Below are positions 53,543 through 63,445 of a stretch of 64,000 nt of DNA, one piece after another. Every line of letters starts with the position of its first letter. The stretch's first letter is position 1. Made by a program: the position numbers and the translations under genes. Source of the stretch: Streptomyces sp. M41(2017) (GTDB lineage: Bacteria > Actinomycetota > Actinomycetes > Streptomycetales > Streptomycetaceae); assembly GCF_002078175.1 (NCBI RefSeq), contig NZ_MWFK01000001.1, positions 5,704,001 through 5,768,000 of the forward strand, written 5' to 3'. A model generated the notes under the pieces. That model did no database searches and was not told the origin of the DNA. It saw only the letters and a list, made by a program, of their open reading frames with translations.

Positions 53543-55423
53543 ATGGCGGACGAGACTCCTGGAGCCCGGGCGGGAGAGAGGCCGCGGAACGGGCCCGGCG
53601 GGCGTCGCGGTGACGCGCCCCGGTATCTGCCCATCGCGGAGCACGGACTCATCGGCGACCTGCGCAGCGCCGCCCTGGTCGGAACGGACGGCACCATCGA
53701 CTGGTACTGCTGCGGCCGCTTCGACGCGCCCAGTGTCTTCGCGTCGATCCTGGACGCCGACCGTGGCGGAAGCTTCGAGCTCGCCGCCGACGTCCCCGCG
53801 CGGGCGAAGCAGTTCTACTTTCCCGACACCAACGTCCTGATCACCCGGTTCTTCGCGGACGGCGGAGTGGGCGAGATCCAGGACTTCATGCCGGTCGTGG
53901 ACGGCTCGCGCGAGGCCGACCGGCACCGCCTGATCCGCCGCGTGGTGTGCGTCCGCGGCACACTGCCCTTCCGCGCCCGGATCGCCCCCCGCTTCGAATA
54001 CGGCACGGTCCCGCACACCGTTCACCTGGACGACGGCCAGGCGATCTTCGACTCGCCCGCGCTCAAGCTCGCGCTGACGTCGACCGTGCCCCTGGAGGCC
54101 GACGGGCAGGACGTGCGGTCGCTGTTCAAGCTGGGCGAGGGGGAGTCCGCGGTCTTCGCGATCGACCGGATCGACGACGACGTGCCGCCGCGCTTCTGCG
54201 CCGTGGCCGAGGCCGAGCGGGAGTTCAACTCGACCGTCGCCTACTGGCGGCGCTGGCTGTCCAGGTCGCGATACAAGGGCCGCTGGCGCGAGATGGTGCA
54301 CCGGTCGGCGCTCACCCTGAAACTGCTCACGTACGCGCCCACCGGCGCCATCATCGCCGCTCCCACCACCAGCCTGCCCGAGCAGATCGGCGGCGAGCGG
54401 AACTGGGACTACCGCTACGTGTGGATCCGCGACGCCGCCTTCTGCGTCTACGCCATGCTGCGCCTCGGCTTCACCGAGGAGGCCGAGGCGTTCATGACCT
54501 TCCTCTCCGAACACGTACGCCTCGACGATCCCGACACGACGGCGCCGGGCGGTCCGCTCCAGATCATGTACGGCATCGACGGGCGCCGTGACCTGCCCGA
54601 GCGTGAACTGCCGCACCTGGAGGGCTACCGGGGATCCGCCCCGGTGCGTGTCGGCAACGCCGCCGTCGGCCAGCTCCAGCTCGACATCTACGGGGCCCTG
54701 GTCGACTCGCTGTACCTGTACGACAAGTGGGGCCAGCCGCTCTCCAGCGCGCACTGGGACGGCATCAGCGCGCTCGTCGACTGGGTGTGCGACAACTGGG
54801 ACCAGCCGGACGAGGGCGTGTGGGAGACCCGTGGCGGCCGCAAGGCGTTCCTGTACTCCCGGCTGATGTGCTGGGTGGCCATCGAACGGGCCATGCGGCT
54901 GGCCCAGCACCGCGGTCTGCCCGCCGACACCGTCCGCTGGGGCACCGCCCGTGACGACATCTACCGGCGCATCATGAGCCGGGGATGGTCCGATGTGCGC
55001 CGGGCCTTCACCCAGTACGAGGACAGCGACATCCTCGACGCGTCCCTGCTGATGATGCCGCTCGCCAAGTTCGTCTCCCCGACCGACCCGAAGTGGCTGG
55101 CCACCCTCGACGCGCTGGGCGAGGACCTGGTCTCCGACTCGCTCGTGTACCGCTACGACCCGCAGGCGAGCCCCGACGGCCTTCAGGGCGAGGAGGGCAC
55201 CTTCTCGATCTGCTCCTTCTGGTACGTCGAGGCGCTCACCCGCGCGGGCCGTATCGACGAGGCCCGGCTCGCCTTCGAGAAGATGCTCACCTACGCCAAC
55301 CACCTCGGCCTGTACGCGGAGGAGATCGGCCACACCGGGGAGCAGAGCGGGAACTTCCCCCAGGCCTTCACCCATCTCGCCCTGATCAGCGCCGCCTTCA
55401 ACCTGGACCGCAAACTCGGCTGA
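53543..55423 (+). CDS. Glycoside hydrolase family 15 protein
   Basis: A 626-residue cytoplasmic GH15 enzyme (glucoamylase/trehalase group). The N-terminal domain has YLPIAEHGLIGDLRSAALVG and GTIDWYCCGRFDAPSVFASI. The alpha/alpha barrel has PEQIGGERNWDYRYVWIRDA, a first catalytic Glu region at GLQGEEGTFSICSFWYVEAL and a second at HTGEQSGNFPQAFTHLALIS. These match the bacterial trehalase/glucodextranase-like branch. No signal peptide is present, so an intracellular role in trehalose or maltooligosaccharide breakdown is likely. An AGGGAGG site precedes the ATG. Confidence 0.92.
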   Translation: MADETPGARAGERPRNGPGGRRGDAPRYLPIAEHGLIGDLRSAALVGTDGTIDWYCCGRFDAPSVFASILDADRGGSFELAADVPARAKQFYFPDTNVLITRFFADGGVGEIQDFMPVVDGSREADRHRLIRRVVCVRGTLPFRARIAPRFEYGTVPHTVHLDDGQAIFDSPALKLALTSTVPLEADGQDVRSLFKLGEGESAVFAIDRIDDDVPPRFCAVAEAEREFNSTVAYWRRWLSRSRYKGRWREMVHRSALTLKLLTYAPTGAIIAAPTTSLPEQIGGERNWDYRYVWIRDAAFCVYAMLRLGFTEEAEAFMTFLSEHVRLDDPDTTAPGGPLQIMYGIDGRRDLPERELPHLEGYRGSAPVRVGNAAVGQLQLDIYGALVDSLYLYDKWGQPLSSAHWDGISALVDWVCDNWDQPDEGVWETRGGRKAFLYSRLMCWVAIERAMRLAQHRGLPADTVRWGTARDDIYRRIMSRGWSDVRRAFTQYEDSDILDASLLMMPLAKFVSPTDPKWLATLDALGEDLVSDSLVYRYDPQASPDGLQGEEGTFSICSFWYVEALTRAGRIDEARLAFEKMLTYANHLGLYAEEIGHTGEQSGNFPQAFTHLALISAAFNLDRKLG

Positions 55424-56445: not shown

Positions 56446-59400
56446 TCAGGACCGGGCCAGGACCGGATCGCTGTTGTACGCCTCCACCTGCAGGGACGGA
56501 CGGCCGGACGCCAGAGCCGACGCCGGCCAGGACAGCGTCACCCGACGGGACTCTCCCGGCAGCAGCCACAGATAGTTGTCGCCGTACAGCGTGGGCAGGA
56601 CGCGCTCCCGGCCGGCCCGGTCCAGCAGCGAGAGCCGGACCATCGCCGCGACCGCCGTGCCCCGGTTGCCCACGGTGGCGGTCAACTCGTGGCGCGCCCC
56701 CGCCTGCGACAGACGGGAGACCGCGGCGGACAGCTTGACCTTCCGCCCCGAGTTGAGCGCCTTCAGCGCGGCCGGGGTCCGCTGACGCCAGTACGTATTG
56801 ACGGACAGCGGGCGGCCCGCGGAGTCCTCCAGGGTCAGCCGGAGCAGATGCAGATCCGGCAGGTCGTCGGTCCATCCGACGGTCAGGGCCCGTGTCGTGG
56901 TGGCGGCGGCCACTTCGACGCCCGCCGTATGGGTGGCCCCGTGCTGCCGGCCCGACAGGTCGTACAGACGGGCGGTGACCTTCGCCCCCTTGAGCGCCCG
57001 GCTGGTGTGGTTGACCGCGATCACCTGCCCGGTCCGGGGATCCGCCTGCACATGCAGGGGCTCGCAGCCCGAACGGGCCCCGTAATAGGTGCCGTTGACG
57101 TCGAAGTCGTAGTCGTAGGTCTGCCACACGGTGCTGTGCCACGCGGGGTGGGACATCCACAGCATGAGACCACTCGCGTCGTCCCACAGGTGCGCGTTCC
57201 ACGCCTCGAACATGGCGCGTGTGTTCTCGTAGTTGACGAACTGGGCCTTGCGCGCGAAGTCGTCGAGGTCCGTCGCCGTACCGAGCCGGGTCTCGATGGC
57301 CGCCTTGTAGTTCTGCGGCGCCTGGTTACCGCGCTCGCTCCAGTCGTGGTAGTACCACGCACCGCGGATCGGCCACTCCGGCTCGTCGCCCGTCATGTTG
57401 CGCAGACTCGCCGCCGTGGAGACGACCGGCATACCGATCTCGGTGTGGAAGCCGAAACTGCTGCTGCCGTACGTCGACGGCTCGTAGTACTTCTCCGGCT
57501 CGACCCAGCCGTAGGGGCCACCGCCCGTGATGATGCCGCCGGCCGAGTTGTTCTGATAGAGGATGCCGGGAGCCTGCTGCTCGACCGCCTCCCGCATGCC
57601 CTTGTCGATGGCGGCCGGGGGATTGCCTTCGTTGGCCCCGCACCAGACCACCACACTGGGGTGGACGCGGTAGCGCAGCACGGTGTCCCGCGCCGTCGCG
57701 TTGAACGCGTCGTGGTCCGGCGGGTCCATGCCCCAGGCATTGGGGAAGTCGTTCCACACCAGGATCCCGTGCTCGTCACAACTGGCGAAGAACTCCTCGC
57801 GGTTGCTGCTCCCCACCCAGTTGCGGATCATGGTGAAGTTCATGTCGCGGTGCATCCGCACCGCCGCGTCCATCCGCTCCGCGGGCATCCTGCGCAGCAG
57901 CTCGTCCCAGCCCCAGTTGCCGCCGCGCACCAGAACCCGGACGCCGTTCACGCTGATCTTCAGCGGCTCGGGCGTGTTGGTCACCGACGTGACGTCGGTC
58001 CACGCCTCCCCGTCGTCCGACGCCTGGATCGTGTACGTCTTCGGGTAGGCCGCCTCCCACACGATGGCCACCCGGTCGAAGCGCCGTGCGCTGCCGAGGT
58101 CCACCCGGAGCCACTGGTGGTCCGCGTACTCCGAGGACCAGCGCGTGCCGGGGTCGCCGTCCGTCGCGGCGGAGGCCGGGTGATCGGACTCCTGCGTCGA
58201 GGCGGTGGCCGTCCTGCGCAGCGCGAGGTCGGTTCCCGGCTCGGCACTGTCGATCACCGAGAGGGACCACAGCGAGTTGCCCCAACTCGTGTTGCGCACG
58301 CCGCAGTCGATGCGCACGTAGCGTGCCGTGCGCGGGGTGAACTCCTCCACCTGGAGGCTGGCGTCACCGCTGTTGAACGGCAGCGGCACGGCGGTGTTGT
58401 CGACGGACTTCACGTCCCGCCACTGGTCGCCGTCGGTGGACACCTGCACCACATAGGTGCGCGCGTACGCCTGCTCCCACACCAGGTCGACGCGGTCGAA
58501 GGACTGCGTGGCTCCCAGGTCGACCCGGATCCACTGGTCGTCCTGGTAGGCCGAGGACCACCGGGTGGCCGGGTCGCCGTCCGTGACGTTGCCGGCCGCG
58601 TGGCCGTCCTCGTCGGTCGTCGACGCGGCGGCGTCGGCGTGCAGCGCGAGGTCGGTGCCCGGCCGGGCACTGTCGAAGACGGACAGCGTCCACAGTGAAC
58701 TGCCCCAGTCGGTCGCCCGGGTCAGGCAGCGGACGCGGACGTGCCGGGCCTGCTGCGCGCCCACGTCCACGGACTGGGTGTACGCGTCACCGGAAGCGAC
58801 GAAGGGAAGTGGTACGTCGTACTCGTAGCCGAACTGGCGTATGCCGAAGCGGGTTTCGCGCCGGTCGCTCTCGGAGCCGTCCACCACCGCGACCATCGTC
58901 AGGTCGTGCAGACGCGCGCTGCCGAGCCCGTTGGGCCACCACAGCTCGGGGTTGCGCAGCCGCAGCCCGCTGAAGGCGTCGGGGGCGAACACGACGTCGA
59001 CGCTCCGGCCCGCCGGGACCGTGACGGTGCGGGAGACGCGTACGGAGCCGAACGCCGCGGTGACGGTCGCCTTGTGGTCGGCGCTGTCGGCGTTGCGGAC
59101 CGGCACGACGATGGTCAGTTCGGCCGTCGAGGTGTCGGGGAGGTCCGGCAGGACGGTGTCCACCCGGGGATCGCCGATCACGACCTGCCCGGTGGATCTC
59201 AGGCGCACGTGGTTCCAGATGCCCGCGACCCGGTCGCGGACGGCCGGCATCCAGTCCCAGCCCGAAGAGGCCAGATACGTGGGGGAGTTGAGGTTCATCT
59301 GGTTGGCGCCGGCGTCGACCCACGCCTCACCGGCGGGTCCCTTGTCGCCGGGGCTGCCGGGCACGGGCATCGGCGTGATCTTCACCGCCAGCGCGTTCTC

Positions 59401-60528
59401 GCCCCGGGTCTCCAGGAGCTTCGTCACGTCGTGGGCCGAGCGGGCGAACGGGTACAGCAGGTCGCCCACCTGCTTCCCGTTGAGCCAGATGTCGGCCCGG
59501 TGGTTGATGCCGTCGAACTCCAGCCAGATCCGGCGCCCGGCACCCGTCCGCAGGCCGCGCGGCAGCTCGAAGTCCCGCTTGTACCACCAGGAGTGACGGG
59601 AGAGCGCCTCGGGGATGTGCAGGTTGTTCAGGCCGGAGACCGGGTCGGGCAGCTTGCCCTGGTCCACGAGGGACGCGAGGACGGTACCGGGCACCGTGGC
59701 CGGCAGCCAGGTCCGGGTGTCCACGTCGGTCCTCGACAGTGCCGCGCCGTCGCCCTTGGCCCAGTCGTCCATGGTGAGCGTCCAGCCGGACTCCAGCGGC
59801 ACCGTGCCGTCGCCGGCCACCTTCAGTGCCGGGGCGTGCCCGTCGTGCGTGCCCCAGTCCGTCCACCCGGTGGCGGAGGGGCGGCGCCCCTGGGCGGAGC
59901 CGAACACCTCGAAGCCGTTGACGCCCAGGGGGTTGGGGCTGGACCGCTTGCGGGAGGTCAGCCGCACCCAGCGCGCCGTGGTCGGCTTCGGCAACTGGAT
60001 GTCGACGACGCCGCCGGTGCCGGCCGTCGTGCGGTACACGCTGGTCCACGAGGTGTGGTCACGGGACGTCTCGACCACGAAGTCGACCGCGTAGCTGGAG
60101 AGGATCTCCTTGCCCGTGGTGCCGTCGGCCCAGTTCCCGGTCGCCGGAGGCGTGAACACCGGGTCGCTCGCGTCCGCTTCGAAGGTGAGCCGGATCCAGG
60201 TGACCCGGCAGTCCGCCTGGAGGTCGACCGAGATCCACTGCGGGTCGCCGCCCCCGGCCCGCCACCCGGTGCCCCGCACGCCGGGGGAGGCGACCCGGTC
60301 GACCACGAACTCCCCGGGCGTGGGGGCGTAGTCGGTGGACGAGACCGTCACCGGCCGGTAGACGGCGAGTTCGTCCTCGGACCCCCGCGCGACGACGGGG
60401 CCCTGGCGCCCGGCTGCCACGGCGGTACCGGGCAGCGCGCCACCCAGGCCGAATCCGGCCAGCAGCGTCGAGCCGGTGAGGACGATCGATCGTCGGGAGG
60501 GGGAGTGCGGCGGATTCGGCTGAGCCAT
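56446..60528 (-). CDS. Secreted GH2 exo-beta-glucosaminidase-like enzyme with inserted discoidin repeats
   Basis: A 1360-residue exported enzyme. A Tat signal (SRRSIVLTGSTLLAGFGLGG) is followed by a discoidin domain (about 50-200), the GH2 sugar-binding and Ig-like domains, then two discoidin repeats inserted before the TIM barrel (about 570-855). The barrel resumes at ISVNGVRVLVRGGNWGWDEL and carries the acid/base Glu967 (CGANEGNPP) and nucleophile Glu1030 (HTEIGMP). GGNWGWDEL, NWVGSSNREEFF and the GANEG block resemble exo-beta-D-glucosaminidase CsxA, which trims chitosan oligomers. The ATG at 60528 is preferred to a TTG 15 bases earlier. LacI-type operators lie upstream. Confidence 0.85.
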   Translation of the reverse strand: MAQPNPPHSPSRRSIVLTGSTLLAGFGLGGALPGTAVAAGRQGPVVARGSEDELAVYRPVTVSSTDYAPTPGEFVVDRVASPGVRGTGWRAGGGDPQWISVDLQADCRVTWIRLTFEADASDPVFTPPATGNWADGTTGKEILSSYAVDFVVETSRDHTSWTSVYRTTAGTGGVVDIQLPKPTTARWVRLTSRKRSSPNPLGVNGFEVFGSAQGRRPSATGWTDWGTHDGHAPALKVAGDGTVPLESGWTLTMDDWAKGDGAALSRTDVDTRTWLPATVPGTVLASLVDQGKLPDPVSGLNNLHIPEALSRHSWWYKRDFELPRGLRTGAGRRIWLEFDGINHRADIWLNGKQVGDLLYPFARSAHDVTKLLETRGENALAVKITPMPVPGSPGDKGPAGEAWVDAGANQMNLNSPTYLASSGWDWMPAVRDRVAGIWNHVRLRSTGQVVIGDPRVDTVLPDLPDTSTAELTIVVPVRNADSADHKATVTAAFGSVRVSRTVTVPAGRSVDVVFAPDAFSGLRLRNPELWWPNGLGSARLHDLTMVAVVDGSESDRRETRFGIRQFGYEYDVPLPFVASGDAYTQSVDVGAQQARHVRVRCLTRATDWGSSLWTLSVFDSARPGTDLALHADAAASTTDEDGHAAGNVTDGDPATRWSSAYQDDQWIRVDLGATQSFDRVDLVWEQAYARTYVVQVSTDGDQWRDVKSVDNTAVPLPFNSGDASLQVEEFTPRTARYVRIDCGVRNTSWGNSLWSLSVIDSAEPGTDLALRRTATASTQESDHPASAATDGDPGTRWSSEYADHQWLRVDLGSARRFDRVAIVWEAAYPKTYTIQASDDGEAWTDVTSVTNTPEPLKISVNGVRVLVRGGNWGWDELLRRMPAERMDAAVRMHRDMNFTMIRNWVGSSNREEFFASCDEHGILVWNDFPNAWGMDPPDHDAFNATARDTVLRYRVHPSVVVWCGANEGNPPAAIDKGMREAVEQQAPGILYQNNSAGGIITGGGPYGWVEPEKYYEPSTYGSSSFGFHTEIGMPVVSTAASLRNMTGDEPEWPIRGAWYYHDWSERGNQAPQNYKAAIETRLGTATDLDDFARKAQFVNYENTRAMFEAWNAHLWDDASGLMLWMSHPAWHSTVWQTYDYDFDVNGTYYGARSGCEPLHVQADPRTGQVIAVNHTSRALKGAKVTARLYDLSGRQHGATHTAGVEVAAATTTRALTVGWTDDLPDLHLLRLTLEDSAGRPLSVNTYWRQRTPAALKALNSGRKVKLSAAVSRLSQAGARHELTATVGNRGTAVAAMVRLSLLDRAGRERVLPTLYGDNYLWLLPGESRRVTLSWPASALASGRPSLQVEAYNSDPVLARS
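57967..58815 (-). repeat. Tandem discoidin repeats inside the GH2 gene
   Basis: Two consecutive units of 142 and 141 codons (58390-58815 and 57967-58389) encode homologous sequence. Both start VPLPF, share DSA-x-PGTDLALxx, DGDPxTRWSSxY, QWxRVDLG and YxxQxSxDG-x-x-W blocks, and end SVxNT. They interrupt the GH2 fold between the Ig-like domain and the TIM barrel. Confidence 0.85.
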
Positions 60529-62151: not shown

Positions 62152-63378
62152 TCAGCAGGCGCCCTCGTCCTGCCACGGACCCCAGTCGGAGGCACCGGGT
62201 GCCTCGTTCTGGGTCCACCACTTGGCTTTCCAGTTGTGATGGTTGTACGAGGCCTCGTTGCCGGCGGTGTACACCGCGGACGAACTCCACGCCGTCTTGC
62301 ACGCGCCGCTCGGCGGCGTGGGCGTCGGGGTCGGCGTGGGCGTCGGGGTGGGCGTGCCGGTGGGCGGGGTCGCTCCCGCGAACTTCACCGAGTACTTGGC
62401 GAAGTCCCAGGAGTTCTGGGCCACGCTGGAGCAGGTGCCCGACGTACGGCCGCCGTTGTCGGCGGGCGAGCACTGGCGGTCGCGGTTGAGCGACCAGAAG
62501 GTGAAGCGGTCCATGTTGTGACTGGTGGCGAAGTCCAGCACGGTCTGGAAGTCGGCCTGCGAGAAGTACTCGCCGGTGTCGCTGCGGCCGTTCATGCCCG
62601 AGAAGCCCTCGTGGGCGTACGCGGTCGACTGGTCCCAGCCGAAGGTGGACTGGAGGATCGTGTTGAAGTTGGCGAGCGCGCTGGTCTGCGACGCGGCGCC
62701 GTTGAACCCGCCGTCGAACGGCATGATGGAGAAGTTGTTCGGCGTGAAGCCCTGCGACTTCGCTTCCAGCAGCATCTGCTTGCCGAACCAGCCGGTGCCG
62801 TCCGCCGTGCCGGCCGTGGTGACGGAGACGTACAGTCCGGGGTTGTTCTGCTGGAGGATCTTGGCGGCGCCGATCTCGTTCTTGATGGCCGCCGTGTTCT
62901 CGTACTCCGGCTCCTCCAGGTCGAAGTCGATGGCGTGCAGGCCGTACTTGGTGATGACCTGCTGGTACGCCGCCGCGGTGGAGGCCGCGTCCGAGCAGGC
63001 CTGGCCGAGCTTGGTGCCGCCGTACCCGCCGATGGAGACGGAGACGTCACCGCCCTTGGAGCGGATGCCGTTGATGACCGACTGCACGGCGGTGTCCGAG
63101 GAGACCGCCGACGTGCCGCCCCACGTCGGCGAGCAGCCGCCGCCGTTGGGAGCGAGGATGAAGGCGAGCTGGAACGCCTTGAGGCCCGTGGCGTCCATGA
63201 TGGCGCCCGCGTCCGGCGGCTCGTTGTCCGTCGGCATCAGGTAGGGGGCGGCGGCGTACCAGCGGTTGCTGAGCGCGGTGGTCGCGCCCGAGGCGTTGCC
63301 CGCGACCAGCGCGGTCGTGCCGACTGCGGCCAGGCTGACGGCTGCTGCCGCGCCCAGACATGCGCGAAGACGTCTCAC
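62152..63378 (-). CDS. Secreted GH18 chitinase with chitin-binding domain
   Basis: A 408-residue exported enzyme. The signal peptide spans about 1-31 (Arg start, Ala/Val-rich core, ASGA cleavage). The GH18 barrel (about 38-345) has the SxGG-type strand VSVSIGGYGG and the catalytic motif D151-F-D153-L-E155 in HAIDFDLEEPE. A (Thr-Pro)n linker (about 345-358) leads to a C-terminal type-3 chitin-binding module (CBM5/12) with aromatic residues: NEASYNHHNWKAKWWTQNEA and SDWGPWQDEGAC. It degrades chitin outside the cell. The GTG at 63378 follows GGAGG. Two dre-like DasR sites lie about 70 and 90 bases upstream, predicting release by GlcN-6-phosphate. Confidence 0.92.
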   Translation of the reverse strand: MRRLRACLGAAAAVSLAAVGTTALVAGNASGATTALSNRWYAAAPYLMPTDNEPPDAGAIMDATGLKAFQLAFILAPNGGGCSPTWGGTSAVSSDTAVQSVINGIRSKGGDVSVSIGGYGGTKLGQACSDAASTAAAYQQVITKYGLHAIDFDLEEPEYENTAAIKNEIGAAKILQQNNPGLYVSVTTAGTADGTGWFGKQMLLEAKSQGFTPNNFSIMPFDGGFNGAASQTSALANFNTILQSTFGWDQSTAYAHEGFSGMNGRSDTGEYFSQADFQTVLDFATSHNMDRFTFWSLNRDRQCSPADNGGRTSGTCSSVAQNSWDFAKYSVKFAGATPPTGTPTPTPTPTPTPTPPSGACKTAWSSSAVYTAGNEASYNHHNWKAKWWTQNEAPGASDWGPWQDEGAC

Positions 63379-63445
63379 GGTGCCTCCAGAAGGGGTGGGG
63401 GAGTGGCCATAGCTTCCGGCCACTGTCGCGATCACGTCAATGAGT

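Follow-up and report, generated by a model that had tools for sequence, protein, structure and literature searches.

The subject of this study is a gene for an enzyme of glycoside hydrolase family 2 (GH2), which lies in a stretch of 64,000 nucleotides (nt) from Streptomyces sp. M41(2017) (contig NZ_MWFK01000001.1, positions 5,704,001 to 5,768,000), called the window below. The encoded protein carries an insert of two homologous units, which most probably are a tandem pair of circularly permuted discoidin modules of carbohydrate-binding module family 32 (CBM32), located in the hairpin that joins the immunoglobulin (Ig)-like domain of the GH2 fold to its TIM barrel. The genome of 9.02 Mb consists of five contigs, and the window is part of the contig of 5.87 Mb; in our tree, the closest named relatives of the gene belong to Streptomyces. 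The gene, the parts of the insert and the two flanking domains are located as follows.

56446..60528, minus strand: GH2 gene, 1360 amino acids (aa) (open reading frame list; Pfam)
58837..59148, minus strand: GH2 Ig-like domain PF00703, residues 461-564 (Pfam)
58390..58815, minus strand: insert unit 1 (C1 and N2), residues 572-713, read as a circularly permuted CBM32 (alignment, Pfam, AlphaFold2/VIA-align)
58654..58815, minus strand: C1, C-terminal part of a CBM32, residues 572-625 (alignment, Pfam)
58390..58653, minus strand: N2, N-terminal part of a CBM32, residues 626-713 (PDB sequence alignment)
57973..58389, minus strand: insert unit 2 (C2 and N3), residues 714-852, read as a circularly permuted CBM32 (alignment, AlphaFold2/VIA-align)
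58231..58389, minus strand: C2, C-terminal part of a CBM32, residues 714-766 (alignment, PDB match)
57973..58230, minus strand: N3, N-terminal part of a CBM32, residues 767-852 (alignment)
57028..57960, minus strand: GH2 TIM barrel, about residues 857-1167, boundaries approximate (Pfam and alignment)

Order of the halves in the insert

The insert comprises residues 572-852; its two units of 142 and 139 aa separate the β-sandwich of the GH2 fold from the TIM barrel. The motif FGIRQFGYEYD starts at residue 561, VPLPF is found at residues 572 (position 58815) and 714 (58389), SVDNT at 708, SVTNT at 848, and ISVNGV at 858. A global alignment of the units scored 412 with BLOSUM62; 500 shuffles gave a mean of -24 and a maximum of 24, which rules out chance repeats as the source of the similarity. 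The repeat is also visible in the DNA, where 90 nt recur at a spacing of 423 nt with 77% identity. A preliminary description of this DNA had proposed two discoidin repeats of 141-142 codons, which arose by tandem duplication and sit inside the catalytic core. The location between FGIRQFGYEYD and the barrel is borne out by the motif positions and by Pfam, and the alignment score together with the paired VPLPF and SVDNT/SVTNT blocks confirms the duplication; the unit lengths have to be corrected to the values given above. The discoidin homology also stands, as the family F5_F8_type_C (PF00754) matched the protein in four stretches with 207.6 bits (gathering score 28.2), but the units are not normal domains, each of them being read here as circularly permuted. 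Likewise, the modules are indeed inserted between two GH2 domains, but at the hinge ahead of the barrel and not within it.

Residues 626-766 correspond to a complete CBM32 in normal order, residues 572-625 to the C-terminal third alone, and residues 767-852 to the N-terminal two-thirds alone. The order across the insert is thus C-N-C-N, and the boundaries of the units fall within a discoidin domain, not between domains. An arrangement of two ordinary discoidin domains in a row, unusual in position alone, would account for the homology and the tandem repetition, both of which are real; it is hardly tenable, because the order of the halves is wrong at either end of the insert and because there are relatives whose insert contains no normal domain at all. 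These are the one-unit relatives, for example L029 and L030 (61 and 58% identity in the catalytic part), in which a C part is followed by an N part and nothing further; no other C part occurs downstream of the N part. Their C-N order settles the reading of the C-N-C-N repeat as permuted. For the one-unit insert of L050, a phmmer search of the PDB aligned query residues 61-136 with residues 8-84 of the DD2 chain, and query residues 24-52 with residues 108-136 of the same chain. At the level of sequence alignment, such a non-colinear match is a textbook sign of circular permutation.

The effect of exchanging the halves was assessed with the F5_F8_type_C model, which has 127 positions. In native order, the insert of L029 gave 80.6 bits and covered positions 2-86; with the halves swapped, it gave 88.4 bits and covered 2-124. 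Two controls with a shuffled C part reached 81.5 bits (2-108) and 80.1 bits (2-83). For L113, the values were 85.3 bits (2-89) in native and 93.0 bits (2-124) in swapped order, and the full canonical match was restored in all four single-unit inserts tried (L029, L113, and L189 and L007, see below). In the window, unit 1 scored 78.3 bits in native order, N2+C2 scored 92.0 (2-124), and N3 joined to C1 scored 93.4 (2-124); unit 1, and not unit 2, was scanned alone in native order. With respect to CBM32 membership, the units have the profile match and, by prediction, the β-sandwich fold of the family; they lack its canonical N-to-C strand order.

Predicted structure of the insert

Structure prediction, which the preliminary description had proposed as a check, yielded a β-sandwich fold with AlphaFold2. 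The one-unit insert of L050 was modeled with a predicted local distance difference test (pLDDT) score of 93.4 and a predicted template modeling (pTM) score of 0.87, the two-unit insert of the window with values of 91.2 and 0.80. The alignment for L050 contained 69 unit sequences from a pool of 141 (11 from one-unit and 130 from two-unit inserts); for the window insert, it contained the window sequence plus 60 of 65 two-unit inserts. A Foldseek comparison of the one-unit model with the PDB gave no match at E-values up to 0.001, the best entry being 6eon at 3.8e-3; for the two-unit model, mostly unrelated β-sandwiches were found. The top 1000 Foldseek chains were aligned anew with VIA-align, and the following figures are from the 50 entries listed per model. 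The chitosan-binding CBM32 4zxe covers the N part alone of the one-unit model (56-148, Z 10.0, 1.5 Å, 93 residues). The galactanase BT0290 (6eon, residues 640-779) spans both parts (8-138, Z 13.0, 2.3 Å, 125 residues); among the matches listed, it is the sole entry with more than 108 residues on this model. It belongs to another enzyme, shares 22% identity in the structural alignment, and is absent from the single-sequence matches listed and from the best 60 of 108 profile-search matches. To judge from the model, the permuted topology probably has a solved structural precedent in 6eon. Six more listed entries begin in the C part (92-108 residues, Z 5.7-6.9); we gave them no weight.

The C-N-C-N order of the window could also be read as nested, with residues 626-766 forming an ordinary CBM32 that is inserted in a second CBM32 made of the C part 572-625 and the N part 767-852. 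In favour of this, residues 626-766 read as a whole domain in canonical order and match the Pfam model completely, N3 joined to C1 gives a complete match as well, and the connection of N2 and C2 in clade A is short (VTNDTPIGNTATQV) and, by eye, similar to that of canonical domains. However, the one-unit relatives have no inner domain, so that the permuted form must fold alone at least there. Moreover, among the matches listed for the two-unit model, many other β-sandwiches align with about 13-149 and some with 154-297, which are the extents of tandem units; no canonical CBM32 covers about 61-199 in the 50 entries, an absence that is no proof. Covariation, computed from 75 distinct clade C inserts (effective number 48) with kinship ignored and with pairs within 15 columns and six clade A proteins left out, prefers the tandem pairing weakly: among the top 100 pairs, 35 are of the tandem type (C1-N2 and C2-N3), versus 19 of the nested type (N2-C2 and C1-N3). 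On the strength of the two-unit model and of this weak signal, two permuted domains in tandem are favoured over a split domain with a canonical one inside it, and we consider the nested arrangement improbable.

Several points weigh against the tandem arrangement. The fold of the insert is taken from predicted models, which were computed from shallow alignments of 69 and 61 rows. In the two-unit model, the matches that trace out the units have Z-values of at most 6.0 and are unrelated folds. 6eon comes first for this model, too (Z 13.0, 123 residues), but residues 15-278 are matched to 241-779 of the chain, and the unit matched cannot be distinguished. The gap in covariation narrows to 118 versus 101 in the top 400 pairs, and 17 of the top 100 pairs are of the type C1-C2, which neither arrangement predicts. 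Further matches listed for the two-unit model are an AftD chain at 63-153 and the fucosidase-type chain 8ayr on the last N part (200-286, Z 7.4).

In a tandem pair of permuted modules, the chain would enter each module at the loop that normally divides the N-terminal two-thirds from the C-terminal third. The C-terminal strands would be made first, a short linker (FDSARPGT in unit 1) would cross the site of the old termini, and the N-terminal strands would follow. Entry and exit are probably close together, so that the module could plug into a loop and leave the enzyme fold intact.

Copy number among relatives

For the counts of copy number, signal peptides and inserts, we used the best 80 of 186 loci. 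Two units (287-290 aa) were found in 65 of them, one unit (148 aa) in 11 and no insert (14-15 aa) in 2, while 2 were unscored. Broken or partial frames prevented the scoring of L031, L080, L118 and the second frame of L122; L080 and L118 are among the best 80. Over all loci, the lengths are quantised at 12-16, 148 or 287-290 aa. The insert is a family trait. The preliminary description had regarded a known trait of this kind in close relatives as speaking against its proposal: the trait does occur in nearly all of the best 80 loci, but no description of a permuted insert in GH2 was found in the limited body of literature searched.

In the genus, matches at an E-value of at most 1e-30 were found in 41 of 150 genomes, more distant genes similar to the GH2 enzyme CsxA included; the five CsxA-like genes examined (L034-L038) all lack the insert. 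Wider searches gave matches in 10 of 394 genomes of the class (1e-60), in 4 of 396 of the phylum (1e-50) and in 13 of 250 of the family of genome G456 (1e-70). Genes of this GH2 subfamily look confined to a few groups. A two-unit gene with 86% identity in the catalytic part (L127) was found on a short contig labelled Bacteroidota (a Mucilaginibacter metagenome-assembled genome); it groups with a Streptomyces gene, and the contig is probably a misbinned actinobacterial one. Another two-unit gene (L122) is split into two open frames of 956 and 448 aa, possibly as a pseudogene or by a sequencing error.

A quick maximum-likelihood tree was computed without the insert from 107 rows (86 with two units, 12 with one, 9 with none), after 24 identical rows had been dropped. 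Copy number requires 5 changes on this tree, compared to a mean of 20.2 after shuffling. Nine one-unit rows group together with a support of 100, and the one-unit genes L113 and L124 group with two-unit genes of Micromonospora and Planotetraspora (support 93). The support of the main clade is 87; the tree does not settle the branching among the three groups at the root. Seven outgroup genes lack the insert, but L032 and L048 among them have very long branches. Within clade A, the identity between the two units of an insert (C parts 61%, N parts 68%) is higher than their identity to the units of clade C (45-48% and 58-62%), as calculated from up to 12 sequences per group. Separate duplications or homogenisation are suggested by this pattern. 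We also considered whether the VPL peptide found at either end of the insert marks the original insertion, and dropped this idea: the outgroup sites and those of clades A and B are devoid of VPL, and the peptide therefore speaks at most for the later duplication.

One member of the two-unit clade, L104, has a single unit. Its first 30 columns are nearer to unit 1 (0.61 versus 0.44) and its last 30 nearer to unit 2 (0.82 versus 0.62), a pattern that unequal recombination could leave. The middle is mixed, however, and L104 is no clean two-part hybrid. Judging from this one case, copy number may shift by recombination between units.

Loss of the insert and of the signal peptide

The two genes without insert among the best 80 loci are those of Planotetraspora (L103 and L120), which contain FGIRQVGYEYEPPTSSGDGAVPLKISVNG and FGIRQFGYEYEPPSSGGGTVPLKISVNG, respectively, where the insert would be. 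They pair with each other (support 97), and a wider group with a support of 100 joins them to L130 and L131, two-unit genes that share 88-89% identity with L103 in the catalytic part. In the DNA of the empty site of L132, whose tree row is identical to that of L120, an apparent remnant of the start of the first unit can be recognized by eye. This remnant argues for a deletion rather than an ancestral state. We rejected the idea that the empty sites are ancestral on the grounds of the remnant and of their position deep inside the two-unit clade; they are the result of secondary deletion.

Outside the empty site, L103 runs colinear with the window protein, and both proteins with an empty site retain IRNW, CGANEG and FHTEIG. 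The signal peptide of the twin-arginine translocation (Tat) type is missing in both and present in their two-unit sisters L130 and L131 (loci L193 and L194). With a loose twin-arginine pattern, scored where the 5' end allowed it, 63 of 63 two-unit and 9 of 9 one-unit proteins (72 of 72 scorable ones) were positive, compared to 0 of 2 without insert; four were not scorable. Since the genes without insert have kept the catalytic residues and have no Tat signal, the insert is dispensable for the catalytic core and probably serves binding outside the cell. The joint loss suggests a move of the enzyme to the cytoplasm. A point against this link is that it was seen in one lineage with two species.

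Both genes with an empty site adjoin a gene for a β-helix protein with a GLAA-B barrel domain (L103:1421-3292 and L120:1361-3331, Pfam), which we take to be GH110-like; by eye, the upstream region of the two-unit sister L193 is different. Among ten frames near the empty-site genes, Pfam identified this protein as well as transport and regulator genes and gave no clear clue to the substrate.

Ligand of the modules

The closest solved sequences are the CBM32s DD1 and DD2 of Paenibacillus sp. IK-5 (1.5e-22; PDB codes 4zxe, 2rv9, 4zz5, 2rva). They are described as chitosan-specific binding modules of a GH8 chitosanase and have canonical order, unlike the window modules, which are permuted and lie between two GH2 domains. 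In the structural alignment of the L050 model, the identity to DD1/DD2 over the N part is 40%. Residues 14, 31, 36 and 61 reportedly (Shinya 2016) are the ligand contacts of CBM32s of this type; the equivalents, assigned via the DD alignment, are D, R, Y, E in N2 and E, R, Y, E in N3, so that these predicted contacts are kept in both N parts of the window. The equivalents of Arg 31 and Glu 61 are invariant in all N parts scored (88 plus 88 of clade C, 6 plus 6 of clade A, 13 of one-unit inserts; identical sequences included). Position 14 is mostly Asp or Glu and position 36 mostly Tyr, with Phe in many first units. In addition, the Asp and Thr equivalents of the calcium site, which was mapped from a passage on AlyQ, are kept in the N parts, Thr being replaced by Ser in 12.

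These residues carry limited information on the ligand. In seven canonical CBM32s of the same genome, one of which sits on a GH64 β-1,3-glucanase (L006/L149), Arg 31 is present in all seven, Glu 14 and Glu 61 each in five and Tyr 36 in none. Arg 31, Glu 14 and Glu 61 are thus common in modules of this group, and the contact residues do not fix the ligand. To judge from these alignments, Tyr 36 alone distinguishes the units of the window.

The units might also fold and bind nothing, as structural spacers or decayed repeats. The two Planotetraspora relatives manage without the insert, and the equivalent of position 36 varies in first units (Y, F, W, H), as this explanation would have it. The invariance of the Arg 31 and Glu 61 equivalents and the retained calcium site argue against it, as does the coincidence of insert loss with the loss of the secretion signal, and we regard a mere spacer role as unlikely, though somewhat less so than the nested arrangement. 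As binding modules, the units would attach to the ends of polysaccharide chains outside the cell and might keep the secreted enzyme on its substrate.

Catalytic site and remaining domains

The remaining features of the protein are listed here.

60412..60528, minus strand: Tat-type signal peptide (SRRSIVLTGSTLLAGFGLG), residues 1-39, extent judged by eye
59890..60369, minus strand: F5/8C (discoidin) domain near the N terminus, in unpermuted order, about residues 54-213 (Pfam; boundaries by eye)
59215..59724, minus strand: GH2 sugar-binding-like domain PF22666, residues 269-438 (Pfam)
57628..57630, minus strand: probable acid/base Glu 967 (GANEG), role inferred from GH2
57439..57441, minus strand: probable nucleophile Glu 1030 (HTEIG), role inferred from GH2
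56473..56799, minus strand: C-terminal Ig_GlcNase domain PF18368, residues 1244-1352 (Pfam)

The assignment to GH2 follows from PF22666, PF00703 and PF18368, which all score above their cut-offs, and from the catalytic Glu pair in GANEG and HTEIG; the TIM-barrel model PF02836 stays below its cut-off (15.2 versus 21). The best whole-chain match in the PDB is the exo-β-D-glucosaminidase CsxA (2vzo, GH2_16; 4.8e-68), and the window protein has the C-terminal Ig_GlcNase domain. The active site of the window subfamily, in contrast, has an NE motif and a Trp (in IRNW) that aligns with a Trp of the β-mannosidase 5n6u, whereas the CsxA-like genes of the genus, which lack the insert, have an SD motif in five of five cases. 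In PMC12243196, SD is described as strictly conserved in GH2_16 in place of NE; in the β-mannosidase subfamilies GH2_13 and GH2_17, Trp is described there as replacing a conserved His, with NE kept. The Trp of IRNW would correspond to this replacement.

The site of the window enzyme therefore does not match a chitosan-cleaving GH2_16 enzyme: the SD of GH2_16 exo-β-D-glucosaminidases is absent, and we dropped the label exo-β-glucosaminidase, as NE stands here versus SD in the CsxA-like genes. This mismatch weakens the idea of chitosan oligomers, on which the preliminary description had suggested assaying the enzyme. The active site looks β-mannosidase-like, with the NE motif of 5n6u, 2je8 and 6bye and the Trp aligned with that of 5n6u, although the similarity of these β-mannosidases to the window protein is weaker (5n6u, 2.6e-46). 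Cleavage of β-mannoside-like substrates would be as likely as that of any other. We know of no such insert in bacterial β-mannosidases.

A probable second permuted CBM32 in the same genome

A profile of the units matched 17 places in the genome, two of which are the insert described here. When the ten other proteins were scored with separate models of the two halves, five read N then C (seven domains), and five had no C part above 8 bits. Among the latter is L007 (535-3399 on contig C3), an open frame of 1065 aa. By eye, a C-like part directly precedes its N part, and the C model remains below 8 bits in this copy. It reaches 8 bits in 9 of the 17 homologous loci listed with an N part (L173-L187, L189, L190), and in these nine the C part stands just before the N part each time and never after it. 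Swapping the halves raised the Pfam score of L007 from 64.9 bits (2-82) to 72.2 (2-124) and that of L189 from 74.9 (2-82) to 80.8 (2-124). L007 apparently carries another, independent permuted CBM32 in an unrelated protein. Outside F5/8C, Pfam found no family above cut-off in the L007 family (matches inspected to E 10), and all PDB matches lay in the CBM32 part. The proteins of this family (L007 and L174-L190) are open frames of about 890-1450 aa, in which the permuted CBM32 lies between other protein parts. When the unit profile was run against 119 genomes from across the phylum, none of the loci scored held another clear permuted unit.

Neighbouring genes in the window

At 62152-63435 on the minus strand, the window encodes a chitinase-like protein with a CBM5/12, of which Pfam reported the CBM alone; its catalytic part is presumably GH18. 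A gene similar to GH15 glucoamylases and trehalases is located at 53543-55423 on the plus strand.

Meaning of the proposed permuted module

In enzymes of this kind, binding modules mostly sit at the ends of the chain. Montanier reportedly described in 2010 that two families of carbohydrate-binding modules are connected by a circular permutation that arose in nature. CBM36 and CBM60 are related in this way. The case presented here would likewise be a natural permutation, and it concerns a different family, CBM32. Our search for literature on circular permutation together with discoidin, CBM32 or galactose-binding domains, which had most subscription journals outside its reach, revealed no permuted CBM32.

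We tentatively propose, as a reading that falls somewhat short of being the probable one, that the permuted CBM32 is a reusable plug-in: with its termini moved to a side loop, it could be inserted into unrelated secreted enzymes, duplicated and removed without breakage. Streptomyces would have evolved or employed it on at least two occasions, in the GH2 subfamily and in L007, and it would be the first natural permutation described for discoidin or CBM32 domains. A large domain family would here have been cut open and re-inserted in swapped order within a GH2 enzyme. As one-unit, two-unit, hybrid-like and empty versions occur naturally, insertion, duplication and loss of a module can be studied in real homologues. 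The Planotetraspora genes, which have neither insert nor secretion signal, offer a natural test of the purpose of the modules. Since annotation based on profiles calls permuted modules truncated, others of this kind may be overlooked.

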